The notes beneath the pieces are model-generated. The model worked only from the letters and a program-made list of their open reading frames with translations, was not told the DNA's origin and did no database searches. DNA of 64,000 nucleotides, taken from NCBI RefSeq assembly GCF_004519295.1, contig NZ_SOZH01000011.1, positions 1-64,000 of the forward strand, written 5' to 3'. This document shows positions 31,568 through 41,342 of the stretch, in pieces. The first letter of the stretch is position 1. The number at the start of each line of letters is the position of its first letter. The position numbers and the translations under genes were made by a program. The DNA is from Cellulosimicrobium funkei (GTDB lineage Bacteria > Actinomycetota > Actinomycetes > Actinomycetales > Cellulomonadaceae).

Positions 31568-32986
31568 TCAGACCCGGACGCCGAGGCCCTGCAGCTCGAG
31601 CACCAGGCCCTTGATCGCGGCGGCCGGGACCTGCCCGGACCCGCTCTCCACCACACCCGCGACCGACGCCGGCACCTCCGCGTCCGAGCAGATCACGAGC
31701 GGCGTGTCGGCGGAGGAGTCGGGGAGCCGCCCGTGCGAGCCCTTGACGTACGACGCGTCGAGCGGCACGGTGCTCATCGCGTACCGCAGGCCCACCTTCT
31801 TCTTCACGAGGTTGAGGCCGGCCTTCGCCTTCGCCAGCCGGTCCGCCGGGTCGAAGAACAGCTCGGCGGGGTCGTAGCCGGGCTTGCGGTGGATGTCGAC
31901 GCCGCGCGCGTACTCGGGCGCGCGGGCGTCGTCGAGCCAGAAGTAGTACGTGAACCACGCGCCGGGCTCCGCGACGACGACGAGGTCGCCCGACCGCTCG
32001 TGGTCGAGCCCGTACCGCGCCTGCGCCTCGCGGTCGAGCACCTCGTCGACGCCGGGGACGCCGCGCAGCAGGTCCGTGACCCGCCGCCGGAGCGCCGGGT
32101 CCTGCTGGTCGCCGAGGTACACGTGCGCGACCTGGTGGTCCGCGACCGCGAACGCGCCCGACGTCCACGGGTCGAGCTGCTCCTTGCCGTCCTGCACGTA
32201 GACCTCGAGGAGGCCCTCCCGGCGCAGGATGCGGTTGAGGTGCACGGGCCGGTCGGCGTCCGCGATGCCGTACTCGGAGACGACGAGCACGGTGACGCCC
32301 TGGTTCGCGGCGTCGTCGAGCAGCGGCGCGAGCGTCGCGTCGAGCTCGGCCGCCGCGGCGTCGGCCTGCGGCGACGTGGGCCCGAACCGCTGCAGGTCGT
32401 AGTCGAGGTGCGGGACGTACGCCATCGTGAGGTCGGGCGCGTGCGTGCGCAGCACGTGCCGCGTCGCGTCGACGATCCACCGCGACGACGTGATGTCCGC
32501 CGTCGGGCCCCAGTAGGTGAACAGCGGGAACTCCCCGAACCGGCCGACGAGGTCGTCGTGGAGCGCCGCCGGGCGCACGTAGGCGTCCGGGGACTTGCGG
32601 CCGTCCGCGTGGTAGATCGGGCGCGGCGTGACGGTGACGTCCGTCGTCATGCCCATCGCGTACCACCAGCAGACGTTCGCCGACGAGTACTCGCCGTGCG
32701 CCCGGCGCGCGGCCTCCCAGAGCTTCTCCCCCTCGACGAGGCGGTTGTGCTGGCGCCACAGGTAGACGTCGCCGAGCTCGCGGAAGTACCAGCCGTTGCC
32801 CACGATCCCGTGCTCGGCAGGGCTGAGCCCCGTGAGCATCGTCGACTGGACGCTGCACGTCACGGCGGGCAGCACCGTCGCGAACTCGGACTGCCAGCCG
32901 CTCGCGGCGAGCTGGCGCAGTCGCGGCATGTGGGCGAGCGCGGTCGAGGTGAGCCCGACGACGTCGAGCAGCAGCACGGGCTTCAT
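31568..32986 (-). CDS. eboF: EboF-like type I phosphodiesterase/nucleotide pyrophosphatase
   Basis: A 472-residue member of the alkaline-phosphatase superfamily. The N-terminal LLLDVVGLTSTAL supplies the first metal aspartate and VTCSVQSTMLTGLSPAEHGIVGNGWY the nucleophile region; VPHLDYDLQRFGP and VVSEYGIADADRPVHLNR hold further metal ligands, and SHGRLPDS closes the site. No signal peptide is seen. Last gene of the seven-gene Ebo-type operon; ATG 32986 overlaps the EboE stop by four bases. It would hydrolyse a phosphodiester or phosphate monoester on the pathway intermediate. Confidence 0.85.
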   Translation of the reverse strand: MKPVLLLDVVGLTSTALAHMPRLRQLAASGWQSEFATVLPAVTCSVQSTMLTGLSPAEHGIVGNGWYFRELGDVYLWRQHNRLVEGEKLWEAARRAHGEYSSANVCWWYAMGMTTDVTVTPRPIYHADGRKSPDAYVRPAALHDDLVGRFGEFPLFTYWGPTADITSSRWIVDATRHVLRTHAPDLTMAYVPHLDYDLQRFGPTSPQADAAAAELDATLAPLLDDAANQGVTVLVVSEYGIADADRPVHLNRILRREGLLEVYVQDGKEQLDPWTSGAFAVADHQVAHVYLGDQQDPALRRRVTDLLRGVPGVDEVLDREAQARYGLDHERSGDLVVVAEPGAWFTYYFWLDDARAPEYARGVDIHRKPGYDPAELFFDPADRLAKAKAGLNLVKKKVGLRYAMSTVPLDASYVKGSHGRLPDSSADTPLVICSDAEVPASVAGVVESGSGQVPAAAIKGLVLELQGLGVRV

Positions 32987-34251
32987 GCGGTCCTCCTGGT
33001 CGTGCCCGGGTCGGCGGCGGCGTCGTCCGCGGTCGGTCCCGAGGGTGGTTCGGTGCGCGCCGTCCCGGCGGCAGCGACGTCGTGCGCCGCGACGAGGTGG
33101 GTCGCGGCGAGGTGGTTCGTCGCCCAGCGCAGCTCGGCCGCGATGCCGGCGACGAGCGAGTCGGTCGCGGCCCCCTCGGGCAGCACGGCCCACGTGTACG
33201 TCTCGACGTCGAGGTGAGCCTCGTCCCCGTGCGGCGCCGCGCGGACGGCGTCGACCGCCGCGCGCAGCACGTCCGTCGTCGCGGCGAGCGGCGCGGCGGG
33301 CTCGTGGTGCAGGGGCACGTGGAAGTGCACGCGCCACGGTCCCTCCGCGGGCAGCGCGCCGTCCAGGGCGTCGGGCAGGTCGTCGGCGGCGAGCACGTCG
33401 CCCGCCGCGGTGAGCTCGCGCACCTGGTGGATGTACCGCTGCTCGGCGAACGCGCCGACGGCGGCGCGCGCCGCGTCGTCGGCCGGGTCCGCGACGTGCA
33501 GCGCGGCCGACGCCTGCACCTTGACGACCCGCAGGCCCGCGTCGGTGATGCGGCGCACCGTCGCGGCCGTCCCCGCGCGGCGGTCCGCGAAGGACACCGC
33601 GAGGTGGCACGTGTCGAGGCACACGCCCACGTGCTCGGGGTCGATGCGCCGGTCCGCCGGCACGTCCGGCCCCGTGCGCGCCGCGAGCCAGGCCACGACG
33701 TCGTCCACCGTGTCGAGCACGCAGCCCGGCTCGGGCTCGACCGCGACGCGCACGACCTTGCCCGTGCGCTCGCGCAGGTCGCGCAGGCCCTCCCCGAGCG
33801 CGGCGAACGCGCGCGACGCGGCGTCGTCGTCGGCGTCCGTCCACGGCTCGCGCCAGGCGAGCGGGAGCGTCGAGATCGACCCGGCGACGCCGTCGGGCAG
33901 GAGCTCGGCCAGCACCTCGGCGCACTCGAGCGTGTACGCGAGCCGCTCCGGGTCGGCCCACGTGGGCGTGTAGACGTCGAGCTTGACGACGTCGGCGTGG
34001 AAGCCGCCGTACGGGAACGCGTTGAGCGTGTGGACCTGGAGGCCGTGCTCGTCGAGCACGGCGCGCAGGCGCACGCGGTCGTCGGGCGAGCCCGCGAGGC
34101 GGTGCGCGAGCACGGCCGGCATCCACAGCCCGACACCGAGCACGTCGAGCCCCGCGGCCTCGCGCACGGGCGCGGCGTAGCGCACGAGCTGGTCGAGCAC
34201 GCCGTCGAGGTGCTCGGCCGGGTGGACGTTGGTGCAGTACGACAGCAGCAT
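32983..34251 (-). CDS. eboE: Metabolite traffic protein EboE (TIM-barrel)
   Basis: A 422-residue xylose-isomerase-like TIM-barrel protein. The start LLSYCTNVHPAEHLDGVLDQL is diagnostic of EboE. Metal-site motifs of the fold follow: VAVEPEPGCVLDTVDD, VGVCLDTCHLAV, and VHFHVPLHHEPAAPL. In cyanobacteria ebo genes are needed for correct localisation of the scytonemin precursor; EboE chemistry itself is unknown. ATG 34251 is 17 bases from the TatD gene stop, the only real gap inside the operon apart from 26 bases upstream of the other TIM-barrel gene. Confidence 0.85.
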   Translation of the reverse strand: MLLSYCTNVHPAEHLDGVLDQLVRYAAPVREAAGLDVLGVGLWMPAVLAHRLAGSPDDRVRLRAVLDEHGLQVHTLNAFPYGGFHADVVKLDVYTPTWADPERLAYTLECAEVLAELLPDGVAGSISTLPLAWREPWTDADDDAASRAFAALGEGLRDLRERTGKVVRVAVEPEPGCVLDTVDDVVAWLAARTGPDVPADRRIDPEHVGVCLDTCHLAVSFADRRAGTAATVRRITDAGLRVVKVQASAALHVADPADDAARAAVGAFAEQRYIHQVRELTAAGDVLAADDLPDALDGALPAEGPWRVHFHVPLHHEPAAPLAATTDVLRAAVDAVRAAPHGDEAHLDVETYTWAVLPEGAATDSLVAGIAAELRWATNHLAATHLVAAHDVAAAGTARTEPPSGPTADDAAADPGTTRRTA

Positions 34252-34268
34252 GGTCGAGCCCTCCCGCG

Positions 34269-35147
34269 CTACGCCCGCGCGCCGCGCAGCACGGAGGAGC
34301 CCTCGAACTCCACGCCCGGGGTGGGGAGGTCGCCCTCGACGAACCCGGGGACCGGGTCCAGCACGAGGTTGCCCGACTGCCCGTAGAACTCGACCGGGTT
34401 GCGCCACAGCACCTGGTCGACGTCGTCCTCGGTGAAGCCCGCGGCGAGCATCGCCTGCCCCGTCTTGAGCGTCTTGAGCGGGTCGGAGCGGCCCCAGTCG
34501 GCGGCGGAGTTCACGATCATCCGCTCGGTGCCGTGCTCCTGGAGGATCGCGACCATGCGGTCCTCGTCCATCTTCGTGTCCGGGTAGATCGAGAACCCGG
34601 CCCACGCGCCCGCGTCGAGCACGAGCGCGACGTTGGTCTCGTTGAGGTGGTCCACGAGCACGTGCTCGGGCGCGATCCCCGACTCGCGCACGACGTCCAG
34701 CGTGCGCCGCGTCCCCGACAGCTTGTCGCGGTGCGGGGTGTGCACGAGCACGGGCAGCGCCGCGTCGCGGGCCATCTGGAGCTGGCGCGAGAAGACCTCG
34801 TCCTCCTCGGGCGTCATCGAGTCGTACCCGACCTCGCCGACGGCGACGACGCCGTCCTTGAGCAGGTAGCGCGGGATCTCGTCGAGCACCTCGCGGCACC
34901 GCGCGTCGTTCGCCTCCTTGGGGTTGAGGGCGATCGTCGCGTGGTGGCGGATGCCGAACTGCGCGGCCCGGAACCGCTCCCAGCCCAGGAGCGCGTCGAA
35001 GTAGTCGAGGAACGACCCCACGTTCGTGCGCGGCTGGCCCAGCCAGAACGCCGGCTCGACGAGCGCGCGGACGCCCGCGGCGTACAGGGCCTCGTAGTCG
35101 TCGGTCGTGCGGCTGGTCATGTGGATGTGGGGGTCGAAGATGCGCAT
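34269..35147 (-). CDS. TatD-family metal-dependent hydrolase (EboB-like)
   Basis: A 292-residue amidohydrolase-fold protein. The metal ligands are visible: IFDPHIHMTSR (H-x-H at the N-terminus), VGEVGYDSM, VLVHTPHRDK, VDHLNE, and the closing VNSAADWGRSD. TatD relatives are nucleases or small-molecule hydrolases; the Ebo versions form a separate group of unknown substrate, so DNase activity should not be assumed. Its ATG (35147) overlaps the EboA stop by one base. Confidence 0.83.
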   Translation of the reverse strand: MRIFDPHIHMTSRTTDDYEALYAAGVRALVEPAFWLGQPRTNVGSFLDYFDALLGWERFRAAQFGIRHHATIALNPKEANDARCREVLDEIPRYLLKDGVVAVGEVGYDSMTPEEDEVFSRQLQMARDAALPVLVHTPHRDKLSGTRRTLDVVRESGIAPEHVLVDHLNETNVALVLDAGAWAGFSIYPDTKMDEDRMVAILQEHGTERMIVNSAADWGRSDPLKTLKTGQAMLAAGFTEDDVDQVLWRNPVEFYGQSGNLVLDPVPGFVEGDLPTPGVEFEGSSVLRGARA

Positions 35148-35848
35148 CAGGCGGTCCTCCCGGTGGTGACGTCAGGGGCGAGGCGGGCGACGTCGTCGGG
35201 CACGACGCGGCCCGCGGCGCGGCGCTCGGCGGCGAAGTCGCGGGCCATGCGGGCGAGCTCGTCGTCCGCGCGGTCGTCGAGACCGGCGACGGCGTCGAGG
35301 CTCACGCCCATGAAGACGAGCTTGAGCACGGCGTGGCGCCACGCGTGCGGGTCGAGGTGCGCGGCCGCGAACGGCCCGACGGCCGCCGCGACGAGGCTCT
35401 GGTCGTTGGTGCGGAGCGCGTCCGCGGCGAGGTCCCGGCCCACCGCCACGACCGACGGCGCGGCGTCGTCCGCCAGCGCACCTCGCGCCGTGAGGGCGTC
35501 GAGACCGCGCAGGACGCCCCGCCGCTCGGCGGTGTCGCCGTGCTGGTAGAGGTCCGCGAGCCGCGCCGCGAGGGCGGCCTCGCCGTCGGCACCGCCGCGA
35601 CCCGCGCCCTCGCCGAGCGCGACCACGAGGTCGGCGCGGGCGGCGTCGTCGACCGTCCCGTGCACGACCCCCGCGGGGTCGGTGTCCGGGCGGACGGGCG
35701 CGCGGCCCACCTGGCGGCCCGCGAGCGCGAACGCGCGGGTCACGGCTGCGGGGTCCTGCGCGACGGCGGCGCGCGCCTCGGCGAGCCAGCGCTCGCCCGG
35801 GGCGGTCCCGTCCGCCGTGCGGGCGTCGGGGCGGGTGGTCTCGGTCAT
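35147..35848 (-). CDS. eboA: EboA-domain protein
   Basis: A 233-residue mostly helical protein. Recognisable EboA features are WLAEARAAVAQDPAAVTRAFALAGRQVGR at the N-terminus, LADLYQHGDTAERRGVLRGLD in the middle, and the closing HAVLKLVFMGVSLDAVAGLDDRADDELARMARDFAAERRAAGR. It has no catalytic motif and no membrane helix; a scaffold or carrier role is possible. It overlaps both neighbours (four bases upstream, one downstream), so it is translated as part of the operon. Confidence 0.8.
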   Translation of the reverse strand: MTETTRPDARTADGTAPGERWLAEARAAVAQDPAAVTRAFALAGRQVGRAPVRPDTDPAGVVHGTVDDAARADLVVALGEGAGRGGADGEAALAARLADLYQHGDTAERRGVLRGLDALTARGALADDAAPSVVAVGRDLAADALRTNDQSLVAAAVGPFAAAHLDPHAWRHAVLKLVFMGVSLDAVAGLDDRADDELARMARDFAAERRAAGRVVPDDVARLAPDVTTGRTA

Positions 35849-36729
35849 GGCACCTCCTGGGGGTGGTGGGGGCGGTCGTCCCACGCGCGGTGCAGCGCTG
35901 TCATGCTGCGGTGCGCGAGGCCGGGGGCGTCGTACGAGTGGCGCGGCAGCTCGACCGCCGCGACGCCCGCGTACCCGACGTCGGCGAGCGTGCCGAGCAC
36001 GAGCGGGAGGTCGATCTCGCCCTCGCCAAACGGGCGGTGCTCGTGGTGGGTGCGCGGCATGTCGTCGAGCTGCACGTTGGCGAGGTACGGCGCGGCCGCG
36101 CGCAGCGCGCCCACCACGCCGTCGGGCTCGACGACGAGGCAGTGCCCGACGTCGACCGTGACGCCGAGGTCCGCGAGGTCGCCGCCGTCGCCGCCCAGCT
36201 CGTCGCGCAGCCGCAGCGCGTCGCCCACCGTCTCCACGAGCATCCCGGGCTCGGGCTCGAGCGAGAGCCGCACGCCGCGGTCGCGCGCGTGCTCGACGAG
36301 CGCGGGCAGGCGCTCGCGCAGGAGCGTCCAGCCCTCGGCGGGGGTCACGTCGTCGGGCAGGACCCCCGAGAAGAAGGACACGCACTCCGCGTCCAGCACG
36401 GCCGCGATCTCGACCGCGCGGCGCAGGAACCGCAGCCGCGCGTCGGCCTCGACGTCCACGAGCGTGGGGCGGTGCTTGCGGAACGGGTCCAGGAGGAACC
36501 GCGTGCCCGTCTCGACGACGACGCGCATCCCCGCACCCTCGTGCGCTGCGGCGAGCCGTGCACGCAGCGCCGCGGCCTCGTCCTCCCAGCCGTCCGCGAA
36601 GGGATCGAGGTGCGGGAAGCCGAGCGTGAGCGCGACGGCGCCGTACCCCTCGTGGGCGAGCACGTCGAGCGCGACGTCGAGCGGGTGGTCGGTGAAGCCG
36701 TTGGTGCCGTACCCGAGCGTGAAGAGCAT
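35845..36729 (-). CDS. Sugar-phosphate isomerase/epimerase-like TIM-barrel protein in the Ebo operon
   Basis: A 294-residue AP-endonuclease-2/xylose-isomerase-type barrel. LFTLGYGTNGFTDHPLDVALDVLAHEGYGAVALTL begins it; probable metal ligands are in LSLEPEPGM, VTVDVGHCLVVE, and VQLDDMPRTHHEHRPFGEGEIDL. This is a second TIM barrel beside EboE and is not one of the six cyanobacterial Ebo proteins as I know them. I start at ATG 36729; GTG 36759, which overlaps the prenyltransferase stop (GTGA), adds ten residues and is equally possible on coupling grounds. Confidence 0.8.
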   Translation of the reverse strand: MLFTLGYGTNGFTDHPLDVALDVLAHEGYGAVALTLGFPHLDPFADGWEDEAAALRARLAAAHEGAGMRVVVETGTRFLLDPFRKHRPTLVDVEADARLRFLRRAVEIAAVLDAECVSFFSGVLPDDVTPAEGWTLLRERLPALVEHARDRGVRLSLEPEPGMLVETVGDALRLRDELGGDGGDLADLGVTVDVGHCLVVEPDGVVGALRAAAPYLANVQLDDMPRTHHEHRPFGEGEIDLPLVLGTLADVGYAGVAAVELPRHSYDAPGLAHRSMTALHRAWDDRPHHPQEVP

Positions 36730-36755
36730 CGCGCCCCCGGCGGTGCCGGGCGCGC

Positions 36756-37682
36756 TCACGTCTCGCTCATCTCGGCGCGGCCCGGGGCCCGCCCCGCGCG
36801 GCGCAGCAGCCGGCCCGCGACCTCGACGCCCGCGAGCACCCCCACCGACGCCAGGCTCCCCCCGCGCGCGGACCACGCCGCCTGCAGCGGCAGCATCGCG
36901 CGGATCCCGGCCTTGGTCGCGGCGAACGCGTTCTGGGCGGACGGCGTGATCGCGGCGTCGACCTGCCGGGGCAGGCACGTCGCGAGGTAGGCGCCCGCGG
37001 CCGCGACCCCGGCGACCGCCGTCGCGACGCGCGTCCGGTGGCTCGCGCCGTCGGCCGCCCGGGCGCGGCGCACCGCCCCCGCGCCGACGACCGCCCCGCC
37101 CGCCGCGGTGGCGGCGGCCACGCCCGCGGCGAGGGACGACGTCGTGCCGTGCACCTCGCCGCGCGACAGGTACGTGACGCCGGCGGTGTGCACGGCCATC
37201 CCCGCGGCGGCCGGCAGCGCGGCGCGCAGGTGCCCGACGCCGGCCCCGAGCAGCACGTCGAGCCCGCGGCACGCGGCCATGACGAGCGGACCGGCCGCGC
37301 GCTCCTTCGCGACCGTGTCGTACGTCCACACGCTCGCGGCGAGCGGGACGGCGACGGCGAGCGCGCGCGCTCCCCCGCCCGCGGCGGCGAGACCGACGCC
37401 CGCGGCCGTGAGGCCGACGGCGACCTGGAGGGCCCGGCGCTCCGTCACGCGGCCCGACGGGATCGGCCGCTCGGGCCGCTCGACCGCGTCGAGGTGCCGG
37501 TCCGCGTAGTCGTTGAGCGCCATGCCGCCCGCGTACAAGCAGGCCGAGGCGAAAGGCAGGAGGGCGCGGCGCGGCGTGAGCGCGTGCCCGGCCGCCGCCG
37601 CGCCCGCGAGCGTGTCACCGACCACCGAGAGGACCGCGGGGGCGCGGACGAGGTCCAGGTGGTCGTGGAGGGAGCCCGTCAC
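36756..37682 (-). CDS. eboC: UbiA-type prenyltransferase (EboC / SCO3242 family)
   Basis: A 308-residue membrane prenyltransferase with about eight to nine helices. The first aspartate-rich motif is NDYADRHLDAVERPERPIPSG near residue 60; the second is reduced to RGLDVLLGAG, as expected for the EboC/SCO3242 branch. It should transfer an isoprenoid from a diphosphate to a small acceptor in the membrane. GTG 37682 overlaps the cyclase-like gene stop by four bases, tying prenylation directly to the product of that enzyme. Donor and acceptor are unknown. Confidence 0.87.
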   Translation of the reverse strand: MTGSLHDHLDLVRAPAVLSVVGDTLAGAAAAGHALTPRRALLPFASACLYAGGMALNDYADRHLDAVERPERPIPSGRVTERRALQVAVGLTAAGVGLAAAGGGARALAVAVPLAASVWTYDTVAKERAAGPLVMAACRGLDVLLGAGVGHLRAALPAAAGMAVHTAGVTYLSRGEVHGTTSSLAAGVAAATAAGGAVVGAGAVRRARAADGASHRTRVATAVAGVAAAGAYLATCLPRQVDAAITPSAQNAFAATKAGIRAMLPLQAAWSARGGSLASVGVLAGVEVAGRLLRRAGRAPGRAEMSET

Positions 37683-38926
37683 GACCGGTCGGCCGCGGCG
37701 GTCGCGTCGCCGCCCACCCGGGCGGTCGCCGCGCGGACCCAGTCGGACAGCGCGACGGTCTGCGCGGCGAAGTCGTGCACGCCGCTGCCCCAGGGGTCCT
37801 TGAAGAAGAACCCGAGCTCCGGGACGGGGCCCGCGTACCCGGCCGCGTCCGCGAGCGCGAGCAGGCGCGCCAGGTCGAGCACGAGCGGCGCGGCGAGCAT
37901 CGAGTCGTACGCCGACCACGTGGTCTGCAGCGTGAGCCGCGAGCCGAGGAAGCCCTCGACGTGCACGTGGTCCCACGCGACCTTGATGTCACCGAGGTCG
38001 GGCACGTTGTCGATGTGCAGCGGCGTGACGTCGCTGCCCGTGAGGTCCTGGAGCCCGCGCGACTTGGACACGAGCTTGCTCTGCACCGCCTGCGGGTCGG
38101 CGAGCGTGGCGCCGTCCCCGCCGCCGAGCAGGTTGGCCCCCGCCCACGACAGGACGCGCAGCCCGCGGGCCCCGAACGCCGGGGCGAGGATCGTGCGCAG
38201 CCACGTCTGGCCGGTCTTCCCGTCCTGGCCCGCGACGGGCACGCCGCGCTCCTCGGCGAGCTCGAGCAGCACCGGGAGGTGCATGCTCGCCGACGGCGTG
38301 AACTCGGCGAACGGGGCGCCCGCGAGCAGCGCGGCGTACGCGGTGACCGAGCTCGGCGGCAGCACCGCGCGCTCCGGGTCCGCGAGCGCCGCGCGCAGCA
38401 GGTCGCGGTCGGAGAGCTCGGGCGCGGGCTCGGGCAGCGGCTCGGTCGACACGAGGTCGACGACGACGACGCGCGCGAGGCCGTGGCGCTCGCGGAAGTC
38501 CACGATGTCCGCGGCGAGGCGCTCCGCGGCGGCCTGCTGCGACTCGCGCGCGGTGCCCTCGGCGGGGTGGGCCGAGTAGCCGGGGCGCACCTCGGCGTCG
38601 GCCCGCTCGAGCGCGGCGTGCGCGGCGGTGAGCAGGCGCGGCGCGATCATGCCGGCCTCGACGAGCAGCTCGGCGCGCTTGACCATCGACACGTCGGAGA
38701 TGTCGTGGCCGCCCACGACGAGGTCGCCGAAGGCGGGCAGCGGGGCGGAGGCGAAGGGCTCGCCCGCGGTGACGCACCCGGTCGGCTCCGCGCGCCCGTC
38801 GGCGATCACCGCGAGGCCGAGGGCGGCGGTGGTGGCGACCGAGCCGCGGGCGCCGACGAGCCACAGCCCGGTGCGCGCGTCCGGGGCGGGGCGGTCCGAC
38901 GATCCGTCAGGGGCGAAGTGGTGCAT
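37679..38926 (-). CDS. myo-Inositol-1-phosphate-synthase-like NAD enzyme, first gene of the Ebo operon
   Basis: A 415-residue protein of the inositol-3-phosphate synthase family (glucose-6-phosphate cyclase fold). The NAD site is TGLWLVGARGSVATTAALGL (residues ~19-38). Family blocks follow: VVVVDLVSTEPLP, FTPSASMHLPVLLELAEERGVPVAGQDGKTGQTWLRT, and VAWDHVHVEGFLGS. Where canonical enzymes read GDDFKSGQT this has GQDGKTGQT, so the reaction may differ. In cyanobacterial ebo clusters the sugar-phosphate cyclase is AroB-like, so this is a substitution by an unrelated cyclase. ATG 38926; the reading from 39094 would run through the promoter and is rejected. Confidence 0.85.
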   Translation of the reverse strand: MHHFAPDGSSDRPAPDARTGLWLVGARGSVATTAALGLAVIADGRAEPTGCVTAGEPFASAPLPAFGDLVVGGHDISDVSMVKRAELLVEAGMIAPRLLTAAHAALERADAEVRPGYSAHPAEGTARESQQAAAERLAADIVDFRERHGLARVVVVDLVSTEPLPEPAPELSDRDLLRAALADPERAVLPPSSVTAYAALLAGAPFAEFTPSASMHLPVLLELAEERGVPVAGQDGKTGQTWLRTILAPAFGARGLRVLSWAGANLLGGGDGATLADPQAVQSKLVSKSRGLQDLTGSDVTPLHIDNVPDLGDIKVAWDHVHVEGFLGSRLTLQTTWSAYDSMLAAPLVLDLARLLALADAAGYAGPVPELGFFFKDPWGSGVHDFAAQTVALSDWVRAATARVGGDATAAADRS

Positions 38927-39205: not shown

Positions 39206-40708
39206 TCATCCGGCAGCGGGCGTGAAGTCGAGCTGGTCGTCCACCACGGCCACGACCGACCAGAGGTTCCCGTCCGCGTCGGACAGCTCGTACGCGGGCA
39301 GCAGGACGGCCGCGCCGTCCGGCTGGTGCTGCACCGCCAGGCCCAGGCGCGCGTCCGTGATCGTCACGTCCGTGACGGGCCATGCGAACCGCGCACCCTC
39401 CCCCACGGTGGGCGGGACCGTCGGGGCCTCGGGCTCGGACGCGGTCTCCGGGAGGGGCTGCACGTCCTCGCGGGCCCACGCGATCATCCCCCCGCCGCCG
39501 AACCCGAACCGTGCGTCGCCGAGCCGCTCGACCGCCTCGGCCGGGCTGACGACGTCGTACGCGCCGAGCGGGACCCGCGGCGCAAGCGGTCCGGAGAGCG
39601 ACGCGAGCCCCGCACCCGAGTACGTCGCTTCCCACGTGGTTCCCGTGCGCTGACCGTCGACGATCTCGTAGGCCGCCAGGAACGTGGCCCGGGCGCCCTG
39701 CTCCGGCGTCATCTCGCGCGCGACGACCTCGTATCCCGAGACGTCGACGTCGAGTCGCGCGAGCAGTTCGCGAAGCTGGTCCACGGCGGCGTCGGGGCTT
39801 GGCGGCGCCCCGTGCCCCTCCTCCGCGCACTCCCCTGGCTCCGCTGACGAGGTGGACGAGCCCGCCGGCCCTGAGCCGTCCGCACCGTCAGCAGGCATCG
39901 GCGTCACGGCGACGCAGCCCCACGGGTCCTTGGCCGGGTCGGTGAAGCTCACGCTCGCGAGACCGTCCGGCTGGAGCGAGACCCTGGGTCCCGTCCAGTC
40001 GGCCGAGCCGACGGCGTACGACCCGTACTCCTCGCGCACCTCGCCCGCGACCCCGAGGGTGTCGGCGACGCGGCGCACCGTCTCCTGCGAGAACACGCCC
40101 GCCGCGTCGTAGGCCCACGCCTCGGCGCTCGCGCCCTGCGTGGGCAGGCCGTCCTGGTGGAACACCGTGCGCGCTCCCCAGAACCCCCCGGCGAACCCCG
40201 GGACGACGCTCGCCGCGCGCGACGCATCGACAGCGCCCCCTTCGGTGGCGGCGCCGCCCGCGAACGCGTCCGCCCCCGCGGGTGCGTCCGCGCTGCCGAG
40301 CCGGATCGGGGCGAGCGCCGTGCTCTCCGCGGCGGAGCCGCCCGCAGTGGTCCTCCACTCGCCGGCGCCGAGCGCGTAGCCGCCCGTCCCGATGACGAGC
40401 GCGCCCACCACGGCGGCCGCCACCTGGAGCGGCGCCCGACGGCGCAGCCGGCGGGCGCGACGCTCGGCGAGCTCGTCGACGAGCGCGGCCGTCGGGCCGT
40501 CCGCCCCGGCGAGGCCGGCCGCGTCCGGGAGCTTCGCAGGAGCCGCGCCCGGGCCGCTCGTCGCGGGACGGGCGAACGCCTCGGGGACGCGGTCGCGCAC
40601 CGCGGCCTCCAGGACCGTGGCGTCCGGGGTCGCGTCCGCGGCCGGGTCGGCCGCGCGCAGGCGCTCCAGGTCCGCGTCGTCGGGCTGCTCGGGGGTTCGG
40701 GTGGTCAT
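39206..40708 (-). CDS. Membrane-anchored protein paired with an ECF sigma factor
   Basis: A 500-residue protein with a cytoplasmic N-terminus of about 90 residues, one transmembrane helix (LQVAAAVVGALVIGTGGYALGAG, about 93-115), and a large extracytoplasmic part. It lies 70 bases downstream of an ECF sigma gene, the usual place for an anti-sigma factor, but I see no zinc-binding HxxxCxxC in the N-terminus. Four cysteines in the outer part (WGCVAV, GECAEEG) are few. It could be an anti-sigma factor of unusual type or a sigma-dependent surface sensor. Confidence 0.65.
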   Translation of the reverse strand: MTTRTPEQPDDADLERLRAADPAADATPDATVLEAAVRDRVPEAFARPATSGPGAAPAKLPDAAGLAGADGPTAALVDELAERRARRLRRRAPLQVAAAVVGALVIGTGGYALGAGEWRTTAGGSAAESTALAPIRLGSADAPAGADAFAGGAATEGGAVDASRAASVVPGFAGGFWGARTVFHQDGLPTQGASAEAWAYDAAGVFSQETVRRVADTLGVAGEVREEYGSYAVGSADWTGPRVSLQPDGLASVSFTDPAKDPWGCVAVTPMPADGADGSGPAGSSTSSAEPGECAEEGHGAPPSPDAAVDQLRELLARLDVDVSGYEVVAREMTPEQGARATFLAAYEIVDGQRTGTTWEATYSGAGLASLSGPLAPRVPLGAYDVVSPAEAVERLGDARFGFGGGGMIAWAREDVQPLPETASEPEAPTVPPTVGEGARFAWPVTDVTITDARLGLAVQHQPDGAAVLLPAYELSDADGNLWSVVAVVDDQLDFTPAAG

Positions 40709-40778
40709 GTCGCCCTCCAGGTACCGCAGGGGCCGTACCGCGCAGGTGCGGCCGGTCGGGTCTACCCGTGATGTGTGC

Positions 40779-41342
40779 TCAGGCGCCGGTCTCTTGCGCG
40801 AGCGCCGACTGCTCCGCCCACGCCGTGCGCAGGCGCGCGCGGGCCCGGGACAGCGCGGCGTCCGCGCCCCCGCGCGACGTGCCGAGGACGGCGGCCAGGT
40901 CCGCCCCGCCGAGCCCCTCCCACGCGTGCAGGAGCAGGATGCGCCGGTCGCGGTCGGAGAGCGCGCCGAGCGCGCGGCGCACCTCGTCGTCCTGCACGAC
41001 GACGTGCTCGACGTCGGCGCCGTCGTCCGGGCGCTCGGGCACCTCGGCCACGGGCAGGGCCCGCGCCTTGCGGCGGTGGTTGGCGAGGAGGAACCCCGCC
41101 GTGCGGTACAGCCACGGCAGCTCGGCGCCGTCGGGCACGTCGGCGCGACGCCGCCACGCGGTCGCGAGGACCTCGGCCGTCAGGTCGTCGGCGTCGGGGG
41201 CGACGCCCCCGACGGCGCTCGGCAGGCGCCGGCGGAAGTAGCGGTACAGCGGTGTCGCGTGCGCGGCGAAGAGCGCGGCGAACCAGGCCTCGTCGTGGAC
41301 GGCGGCCTCGGTGGTCTCGTCACTGCCCTCGTCGGTCGTCAC
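40779..41342 (-). CDS. ECF-type RNA polymerase sigma factor
   Basis: A 187-residue sigma factor. Region 2 is LFAAHATPLYRYFRRRL with PDADDLTAEVLATAWRRR (core and -10 recognition) and region 4 is ALSDRDRRILLLHAWEGLGGADLAAVLGTSRGGADAALSRARARL (-35 recognition). Regions 1 and 3 are absent, as in the ECF class. I choose GTG 41342, with GAGGAG seven bases upstream, over the longer frame. It is divergent from the DUF4012 gene and upstream of its presumed membrane partner. Confidence 0.9.
   Translation of the reverse strand: MTTDEGSDETTEAAVHDEAWFAALFAAHATPLYRYFRRRLPSAVGGVAPDADDLTAEVLATAWRRRADVPDGAELPWLYRTAGFLLANHRRKARALPVAEVPERPDDGADVEHVVVQDDEVRRALGALSDRDRRILLLHAWEGLGGADLAAVLGTSRGGADAALSRARARLRTAWAEQSALAQETGA

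Follow-up and report, generated by a model that had tools for sequence, protein, structure and literature searches.

What does an Ebo operon make when its first enzyme belongs to a cyclase family unrelated to the one expected there? The question is raised by a seven-gene locus on the minus strand of the 64,000-nucleotide stretch of Cellulosimicrobium funkei DNA analyzed here (contig NZ_SOZH01000011.1, positions 1 to 64,000; "the window" below). The operon, which runs from position 38926 to 31568, is of the Ebo type and opens with a gene coding a cyclase similar to inositol-3-phosphate synthase (myo-inositol phosphate synthase, MIPS). We consider, with a probability of roughly 60%, that it represents the Ebo system in a MIPS-type form and makes a prenylated cyclitol. 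This reading is built on gene content, its conservation, the retention of catalytic residues, the co-occurrence of MIPS with a second enzyme and the altered metal-ligand positions of EboF, all of which were computed here.

According to the gene calls, the order of transcription is the MIPS-type cyclase (37679..38926), a UbiA-superfamily prenyltransferase (36756..37682), a xylose isomerase-like TIM barrel protein (35845..36759), an EboA domain protein (35147..35848), the TatD-like metallohydrolase EboB (34269..35147), EboE, itself a TIM barrel (32983..34251), and EboF, a protein with the nucleotide pyrophosphatase/phosphodiesterase (NPP) fold and an altered metal site (31568..32986). The mostly overlapping minus-strand genes reported in an earlier, sequence-only reading of the locus were confirmed: overlaps of 4 bases join MIPS/UbiA, UbiA/TIM, TIM/EboA and EboE/EboF, one base is shared by EboA/EboB, and only EboB/EboE are separated, by 17 bases. 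In the family scans (Pfam, NCBIfam) some ends were slightly shifted (MIPS from 38995, UbiA from 37685, TIM from 36750) and EboF began at 32950, 12 residues short. The Ebo assignment itself, staked by that reading on the proteins at 32983..34251 and 35147..35848, stands: EboE scores 433.2 bits against NF035939 (cut-off 250; PF01261 2.9e-9) and the EboA protein 147.5 bits against NF035938 (cut-off 50), with no Pfam match. The proposed comparison with profile hidden Markov models of the Ebo families was borne out for EboA, EboB (PF01026, 50 bits, 3.3e-13, cut-off 27), EboE and EboF (PF01663, 203.7 bits, 7.6e-60, cut-off 23). It failed for the prenyltransferase, which remains below the model of EboC (NF035940, 144.9 bits versus a cut-off of 250) but matches the sister model NF045897, the SCO3242 family (319.6 bits, cut-off 260; PF01040 1e-17), and is thus EboC-like.

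Both MIPS Pfam domains of the first gene product are above cut-off (PF07994, 170.9 bits, 6e-50; PF01658, 99.5 bits, 1.5e-28), and its closest relative of solved structure is the MIPS of Archaeoglobus fulgidus (1u1i, 5.6e-57). Residues D225, N255, D261, K274, K278, K306, D332 and K367 (A. fulgidus numbering), the first of which we take to belong to the active site, are kept in 64/64 rows of operon MIPS. The roles of K274, K278, K306, K367, N255 and D332 and the conservation of D261 are described in PMC5614600 and PMC11348189. One of these rows (L054, Oerskovia merdavium) is a single piece of a gene that is broken into two in the assembly by in-frame stops. No cyclase of the AroB-like EboD type was found in the operon. 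The only PF01761 protein of the genome is encoded on another contig (C13) and is, by our reading, an ordinary AroB; an unrelated cyclase does fill the EboD slot, as had been supposed.

The operon enzyme shares its family and active-site residues with A. fulgidus MIPS and with the INO1 of mycothiol synthesis (TIGR03450) but forms a clade of its own (support 94/64) in a tree of 31 of the 73 loci described below plus L142. It reaches 27.1 bits with the INO1 model, far from the cut-off of 638. A search with PF07994 alone had returned it as the only MIPS of the genome, a view rejected when TIGR03450 revealed a separate, full INO1 on contig C1; PF07994 barely detects INO1 (20.6-20.8 bits). Whole-genome searches of hand-picked genomes (40 for MIPS, 42 for INO1) found INO1 above cut-off in 33/42; another three reached 537-606 bits, and six had no full-length match (G268, G407, G409, G097, G051 and G075, the last three having another MIPS of 313-317 bits). 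Because a separate INO1 is present, the operon MIPS is a paralog in most genomes searched and is not needed there as a supplier for mycothiol. That the operon gene supplies the inositol phosphate used in mycothiol or phosphatidylinositol synthesis, and sits in its position by chance, is therefore very improbable in our view, even if six genomes lack full-length INO1 and three of those have another MIPS: the window's own genome is among those with INO1 above cut-off, the operon enzyme has its separate clade, and its position is kept in 64 loci.

This arrangement is not peculiar to one genome, a possibility that we rejected. EboE was found in 19/396 Actinomycetota genomes (18 above cut-off); a second collection added 53 named loci, from genera that include Cellulosimicrobium, Promicromonospora, Oerskovia, Amycolatopsis, Arthrobacter and Rhodococcus. 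Comparison of 73 actinobacterial loci of up to 21 kb each, among them L043, the copy in the window, and its near-copy L044, placed all seven genes in identical order and strand in 64 of them by the positions of their high-scoring segment pairs. This is more than chance conservation and the usual form among the loci compared. In six of the other nine the contig ends before MIPS is reached, one (L028) is of the EboD type, and L025 and L042 lack MIPS. The sequence-only reading had expected the genes to be kept together and had asked which cyclase occupies the slot across actinobacteria; the genes do stay together and the usual occupant is MIPS, with EboD in one locus of the 73. L025 is a second ebo copy in a genome (G128) that also has a complete one (L027), and has a cytochrome P450 and a Gfo/Idh/MocA protein in its vicinity. 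L042 (G279) looks decayed, with UbiA and EboE in short frames and neither TIM nor MIPS found in the locus; the MIPS of this genome lies elsewhere and groups with YcaO-type MIPS. L044 is titled Sphaerisporangium cinnabarinum, a label that looks doubtful given an EboE 97% identical to the window's and Cellulosimicrobium neighbours.

The prenyltransferase follows the same distribution. SCO3242-type UbiA is above cut-off in 17/396 Actinomycetota genomes, all within the 18 with EboE above cut-off; the eighteenth, G381 (locus L028), has EboD instead. The Fisher p value of this co-occurrence, 6e-29, is overstated since the genomes are related. In 23 other loci TIM and EboA are found in one open frame. 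A total of 47 plasmid records carry EboE, 12 of which were examined. MIPS is also present ~4-5 kb from EboE in 28/31 of the actinobacterial records (matched by eye; many are near-copies). The remaining three are NBC_01244, with a lone eboE, NBC_01340, with EboB, EboE and EboF, and NBC_01562. The solitary eboE of the Streptomyces NBC_01244 plasmid (L140:9965-11143) lies amid type II polyketide genes, with no other annotated ebo gene within 10 kb.

The TIM barrel protein that accompanies MIPS (PF01261, 121.9 bits, 4.7e-35) is present in 64/64 complete MIPS loci and in none of the nine EboD-type loci (L028, L143-L150), where the only match is EboE itself. The 'sugar phosphate isomerase' next to the Ketogulonicigenium operon is similar to a TIM barrel found in the flanks of other loci, not the accompanying one. 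Residues E165, E167, D200, H236, H238 and E267 are kept in 40/40 rows (conservation counts for TIM, EboB and UbiA cover 32 of the 73 loci, L142 and other records), and the sole sequence relative in the PDB at E 1e-6 is an uncharacterised protein. As the TIM barrel goes with MIPS and not with EboD, we infer that it acts on the MIPS product. The pairing extends outside Actinomycetota: Gemmatirosa has the TIM barrel at 42% identity and three haloarchaeal plasmids have it as two copies. MIPS together with a TIM 40-44% identical to the Ebo one is also found within a different gene set in records of Hymenobacter, Roseomonas and Methylobacterium (L154-L156). The Hymenobacter/Roseomonas set is annotated as MIPS, an HD-domain or hypothetical protein, Gfo/Idh/MocA, a metallo-beta-lactamase-like or hypothetical protein, YcaO and TIM (42-44%); the Methylobacterium record is unannotated, with MIPS and a 40% TIM.

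The plasmid records examined included 8 of the 15 outside Actinomycetota and Gemmatimonadota, and an annotated 3-dehydroquinate synthase was found in the cluster of all eight. Plasmids of Halobaculum, Natronococcus and Halocatena code MIPS, UbiA, TatD, an EboF-like protein and two TIM proteins, with no EboA or EboE annotated in these clusters; the four TIMs of Halobaculum and Natronococcus reach 20-28 bits with the EboE model. In Halomarina BND7 MIPS adjoins glycosyltransferases instead. Gemmatirosa carries MIPS, TIM, UbiA, EboF, EboB and EboE within 19 kb, with no EboD or EboA match in the cluster. In trees of EboB, EboF, UbiA and EboE (16 of the 73 loci plus L142; L148 was omitted from the Gemmatirosa grouping tests for its long branch), its EboB, EboE and EboF fall among the EboD-type rows. 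Grouping of its EboB with actinobacterial EboB was rejected (p 1.8e-50) and the corresponding grouping of EboF is hardly possible (p 0.031); EboE joins the EboD-type rows at 100/100, and the alternative was not rejected (p 0.143). These phylogenies suggest that in this one genome MIPS took the place of EboD in an operon of EboD lineage, one exchange within a shared core. This argues that both cyclases do equivalent jobs.

NDxxDxxxD of UbiA is kept in 46/46 rows, and H7, H9, E105, H136, H139, H167 and D217, the metal-binding set of EboB, in 45-46/46. EboB shares one tree with the EboB of EboD-type loci. Once the two Ebo-type models are set aside, the geranylgeranylglycerol-phosphate transferases, which prenylate a phosphorylated polyol, are among the best matches of UbiA. 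EboA meets its domain model and does not reach the narrower family NF035937 (59.5 bits versus 320). Its predicted structure is all helical (pLDDT 92.7). Foldseek found no match with an E value of 0.001 or lower, and Z scores with HEAT-repeat rows, up to 11.6, are within the background for helical models, so that a scaffold role of EboA is weak. TPR-like helices have been predicted for EboA (PMC6282210).

EboF was supposed in the sequence-only reading to dephosphorylate or release the product, an idea that has weakened. Its predicted model (pLDDT 81.7) has the NPP fold, with ENPP5 at Z 31.4 and the Xac NPP at Z 31.3 (root-mean-square deviation 3.0 over 336-341 residues). With the NPP/ENPP phosphodiesterases and phosphonoacetate hydrolase it shares this fold (Z about 30-31), the position of the Thr nucleophile, D195 and H366. 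The zinc ligands of mouse ENPP1 are D200, T238, D358, H362, D405, H406 and H517 (PMC9173814). Alignment with phosphonoacetate hydrolase makes T43, D195, Q199, E238 and Y239 the EboF counterparts of T238, D358, H362, D405 and H406, while D8 and H366 were paired with D200 and H517 by eye. EboF thus lacks the seven-ligand zinc site of NPPs and has Q, E and Y at three positions where that family has H, D and H. Among 87 EboF rows from Actinomycetota, Gemmatirosa, EboD-type bacteria and haloarchaea (L028 appears twice and some frames are cut by contig ends), E238, Y239, D195 and H366 are found in 87, T43 in 86, Q199 in 85 and D8 in 67; the EboF of EboD-type loci has the same unusual residues. Two other PF01663 proteins of the genome carry the usual D...H and DH motifs, read by eye. 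ENPP1 loses its activity when D405 or H406 is changed to alanine, and the H362A form still cleaves ATP (PMC9173814). Judged by its residues, ordinary two-zinc hydrolysis by the EboF family is doubtful. Moreover, EboF is present in nine/nine EboD-type loci, and the EboD reaction is itself expected to lose phosphate (PMC5133447). The altered ligands and the presence of EboF beside a presumably phosphate-shedding EboD weaken the case for EboF dephosphorylating a prenylated cyclitol phosphate.

The scheme that we favor for a MIPS-type Ebo system would start with the conversion of glucose-6-phosphate (or a close hexose phosphate), with NAD, to an inositol-type cyclitol phosphate by the MIPS-like enzyme. 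The accompanying TIM barrel may then isomerise, epimerise or dehydrate the cyclitol, and the UbiA-type EboC/SCO3242 protein would prenylate it within the membrane. EboB and EboE, common to the EboD version, would complete the head group, with EboA as a putative helical scaffold. EboF possibly handles a phosphate-bearing partner and probably does not work as an ordinary two-zinc phosphatase. A prenylated cyclitol lipid would result which, by analogy with Nostoc, may have a role in the movement of metabolites across the membrane. A polyprenyl synthetase family found in 6/73 loci, co-directional in 3, counts in favor of this scheme.

Several observations weigh against it. To our knowledge no enzyme activity has been reported for any member of a MIPS-type Ebo operon. 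The eight conserved MIPS residues are identical in every other aligned row, INO1 included; being common to all, they indicate working chemistry, not a product. A five-membered-ring cyclitol phosphate synthase, 6k96, is a distant relative (2.7e-10), a kinship by which the product of the operon MIPS could differ. The prenyltransferase has one acidic residue only where the second UbiA motif is usual, and Ubi-297, from an ebo cluster, farnesylates not a cyclitol but quinoline-like aromatic acids, preferring 8-HQA (PMC9235831). No contig end accounts for the lack of MIPS in L025 and L042, and 3/31 actinobacterial EboE plasmid records have no MIPS match. Two non-Ebo loci, Halomarina L151 and Runella L158, have MIPS but not this TIM barrel. 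The exchange of cyclases is drawn from one genome, Gemmatirosa, where UbiA sides with the MIPS type at a support of only 87/86 and its placement with the EboD type was not rejected (p 0.215).

Genes around the operon bear on the alternatives. In Pseudonocardiales, in genomes of family f6 (Streptomyces-like, to judge from the pairing of its MIPS-tree row with a Streptomyces plasmid) and in some others, the operon is often co-directional with ROK, sugar ABC transporter and Gfo/Idh/MocA genes, with a ThuA/3-keto-disaccharide hydrolase/glucose-sorbosone dehydrogenase (GSDH) protein and with a second, secreted-looking TIM barrel. The co-directional counts over the 73 loci are TIM 28, ThuA/GSDH 28, MocA 20, solute-binding protein 16, permease 14 and ROK 14. 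Flank families were built by BLAST linkage, with one actinobacterial member of each scanned with Pfam, from genes predicted by a simple codon-usage caller that misses some core genes. The Natronococcus cluster is likewise adjoined by an annotated TIM barrel protein (PF01261) and a pyrroloquinoline quinone (PQQ)-dependent sugar dehydrogenase (PF07995). None of the sugar-related flank genes was found at the Cellulosimicrobium loci; the seven-gene core also lacks them at those of Promicromonospora and Oerskovia. Upstream of the operon, the window (39206-41342) codes on the same strand a 500-residue protein with no Pfam match and a sigma-70-family factor (40779..41342, minus strand; Sigma70_r2, Sigma70_r4_2), outside the conserved seven. 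The sigma factor family is found in 12 loci and that of the 500-residue protein in 13 (Cellulosimicrobium, Oerskovia and near-copies of the window); the sigma factor is a possible regulator. The seven genes of the Streptomyces NBC_01768 plasmid (L142) lie downstream of a non-ribosomal peptide synthetase (NRPS) gene, with phosphopantetheinyl transferases and a Streptomyces antibiotic regulatory protein (SARP) on the other side.

UbiA enzymes mostly prenylate aromatics, and MIPS and TIM might together produce an aromatic or quinone-like ring by dehydrations, to be prenylated into a hydroquinone or another redox lipid. The specificity of Ubi-297 agrees with this, as do the weak matches of haloarchaeal TIMs to the inosose dehydratase IolE (33-55 bits versus a cut-off of 290) and the ThuA/GSDH protein co-directional in 28/73 loci, a possible electron donor. 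The window's TIM, however, has no listed IolE match, the phosphorylated polyol acceptor of the geranylgeranylglycerol-phosphate transferases points elsewhere and sugar dehydrogenase neighbours are absent at Cellulosimicrobium loci, so that we regard an aromatic product as unlikely. The same flanks, and the PQQ-dependent dehydrogenase and TIM barrel protein of Natronococcus, could be taken as signs of sugar or inositol catabolism, in which MIPS would serve a salvage route and prenylation would be incidental, or UbiA otherwise employed. This appears more improbable still: the core occurs without such flanks in Cellulosimicrobium, Promicromonospora and Oerskovia, UbiA is present in 64/64 complete loci and the MIPS reaction as known is biosynthetic.

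A somewhat better, though still rather unlikely, alternative is that the operon serves nearby biosynthetic clusters as a helper of metabolite traffic and travels with them. Nostoc ebo mutants retain the scytonemin monomer in the cytoplasm (PMC6282210), the operon of NBC_01768 stands beside NRPS-cluster genes and SCO3242 and SCO3243 of Streptomyces coelicolor are listed under the cluster of the calcium-dependent antibiotic (CDA) (PMC3610822). Against this, the scanned neighbours in the window are a Peptidase_S9-type hydrolase and the sigma factor. The sequence-only reading saw no scytonemin-like biosynthesis genes near the operon, a negative for which no search aimed at such genes was made here.

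A prenylated cyclitol as the product of a MIPS-type Ebo operon has to be set beside related systems already described. Ebo as such, its gene names and the fusion of TIM with EboA in actinobacteria had been described before. The ebo operon of cyanobacteria, Bacteroidetes and eustigmatophyte plastids (Yurchenko 2016, PMC5133447) likewise clusters EboA, EboB, EboE and EboF relatives with a UbiA-superfamily enzyme; the operon studied here differs by having no EboD, by MIPS and the extra TIM, and by a prenyltransferase of the SCO3242 family. That article mentions actinobacterial TIM-EboA fusions as data not shown, and 'inositol', 'MIPS', 'zinc' and 'metal-binding' are absent from its main text. The eboG variant of Deinococcales (PMC5133447; here Deinococcus L144 and L145, and L028 of G381) has EboB, EboC, EboE and EboF in common with the locus, but an EboD-type cyclase and a short protein, the putative EboG, replace MIPS, TIM and EboA. 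The S. coelicolor pair has neighbouring tags, for a transferase and a 'myo-inositol phosphate synthase', but is filed in PMC3610822 under the CDA cluster and not as Ebo; the NCBI prenyltransferase family bears the name of SCO3242. No description of MIPS as an Ebo cyclase, of the link between MIPS and TIM, of the haloarchaeal form or of the altered EboF ligands was found in the open-licence literature searched.

The question of what the Ebo proteins make dates from 2016, and the occurrence of two unrelated cyclases in operons of one kind narrows the possible answers: each cyclase would be expected to supply a cyclitol-type unit, removal of the cyclitol's phosphate need not fall to EboF, and the MIPS product is the expected substrate of the extra TIM barrel. 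A wider proposal, which we put forward tentatively and consider possible with the odds against it, is that Ebo proteins form a pathway, spread over more than one domain of life, to a new class of prenylated cyclitol lipids; its first step would be exchangeable, with EboD or else MIPS plus its dedicated TIM feeding a shared core. In this proposal EboF would be a family-wide rewired NPP that is not a phosphatase, and the lipid would work with secreted sugar-oxidising enzymes in many actinobacteria and at least one haloarchaeon. Since the chemistry of MIPS is well assayed, the question of the product is directly testable in Streptomyces or Cellulosimicrobium, which are easily grown.

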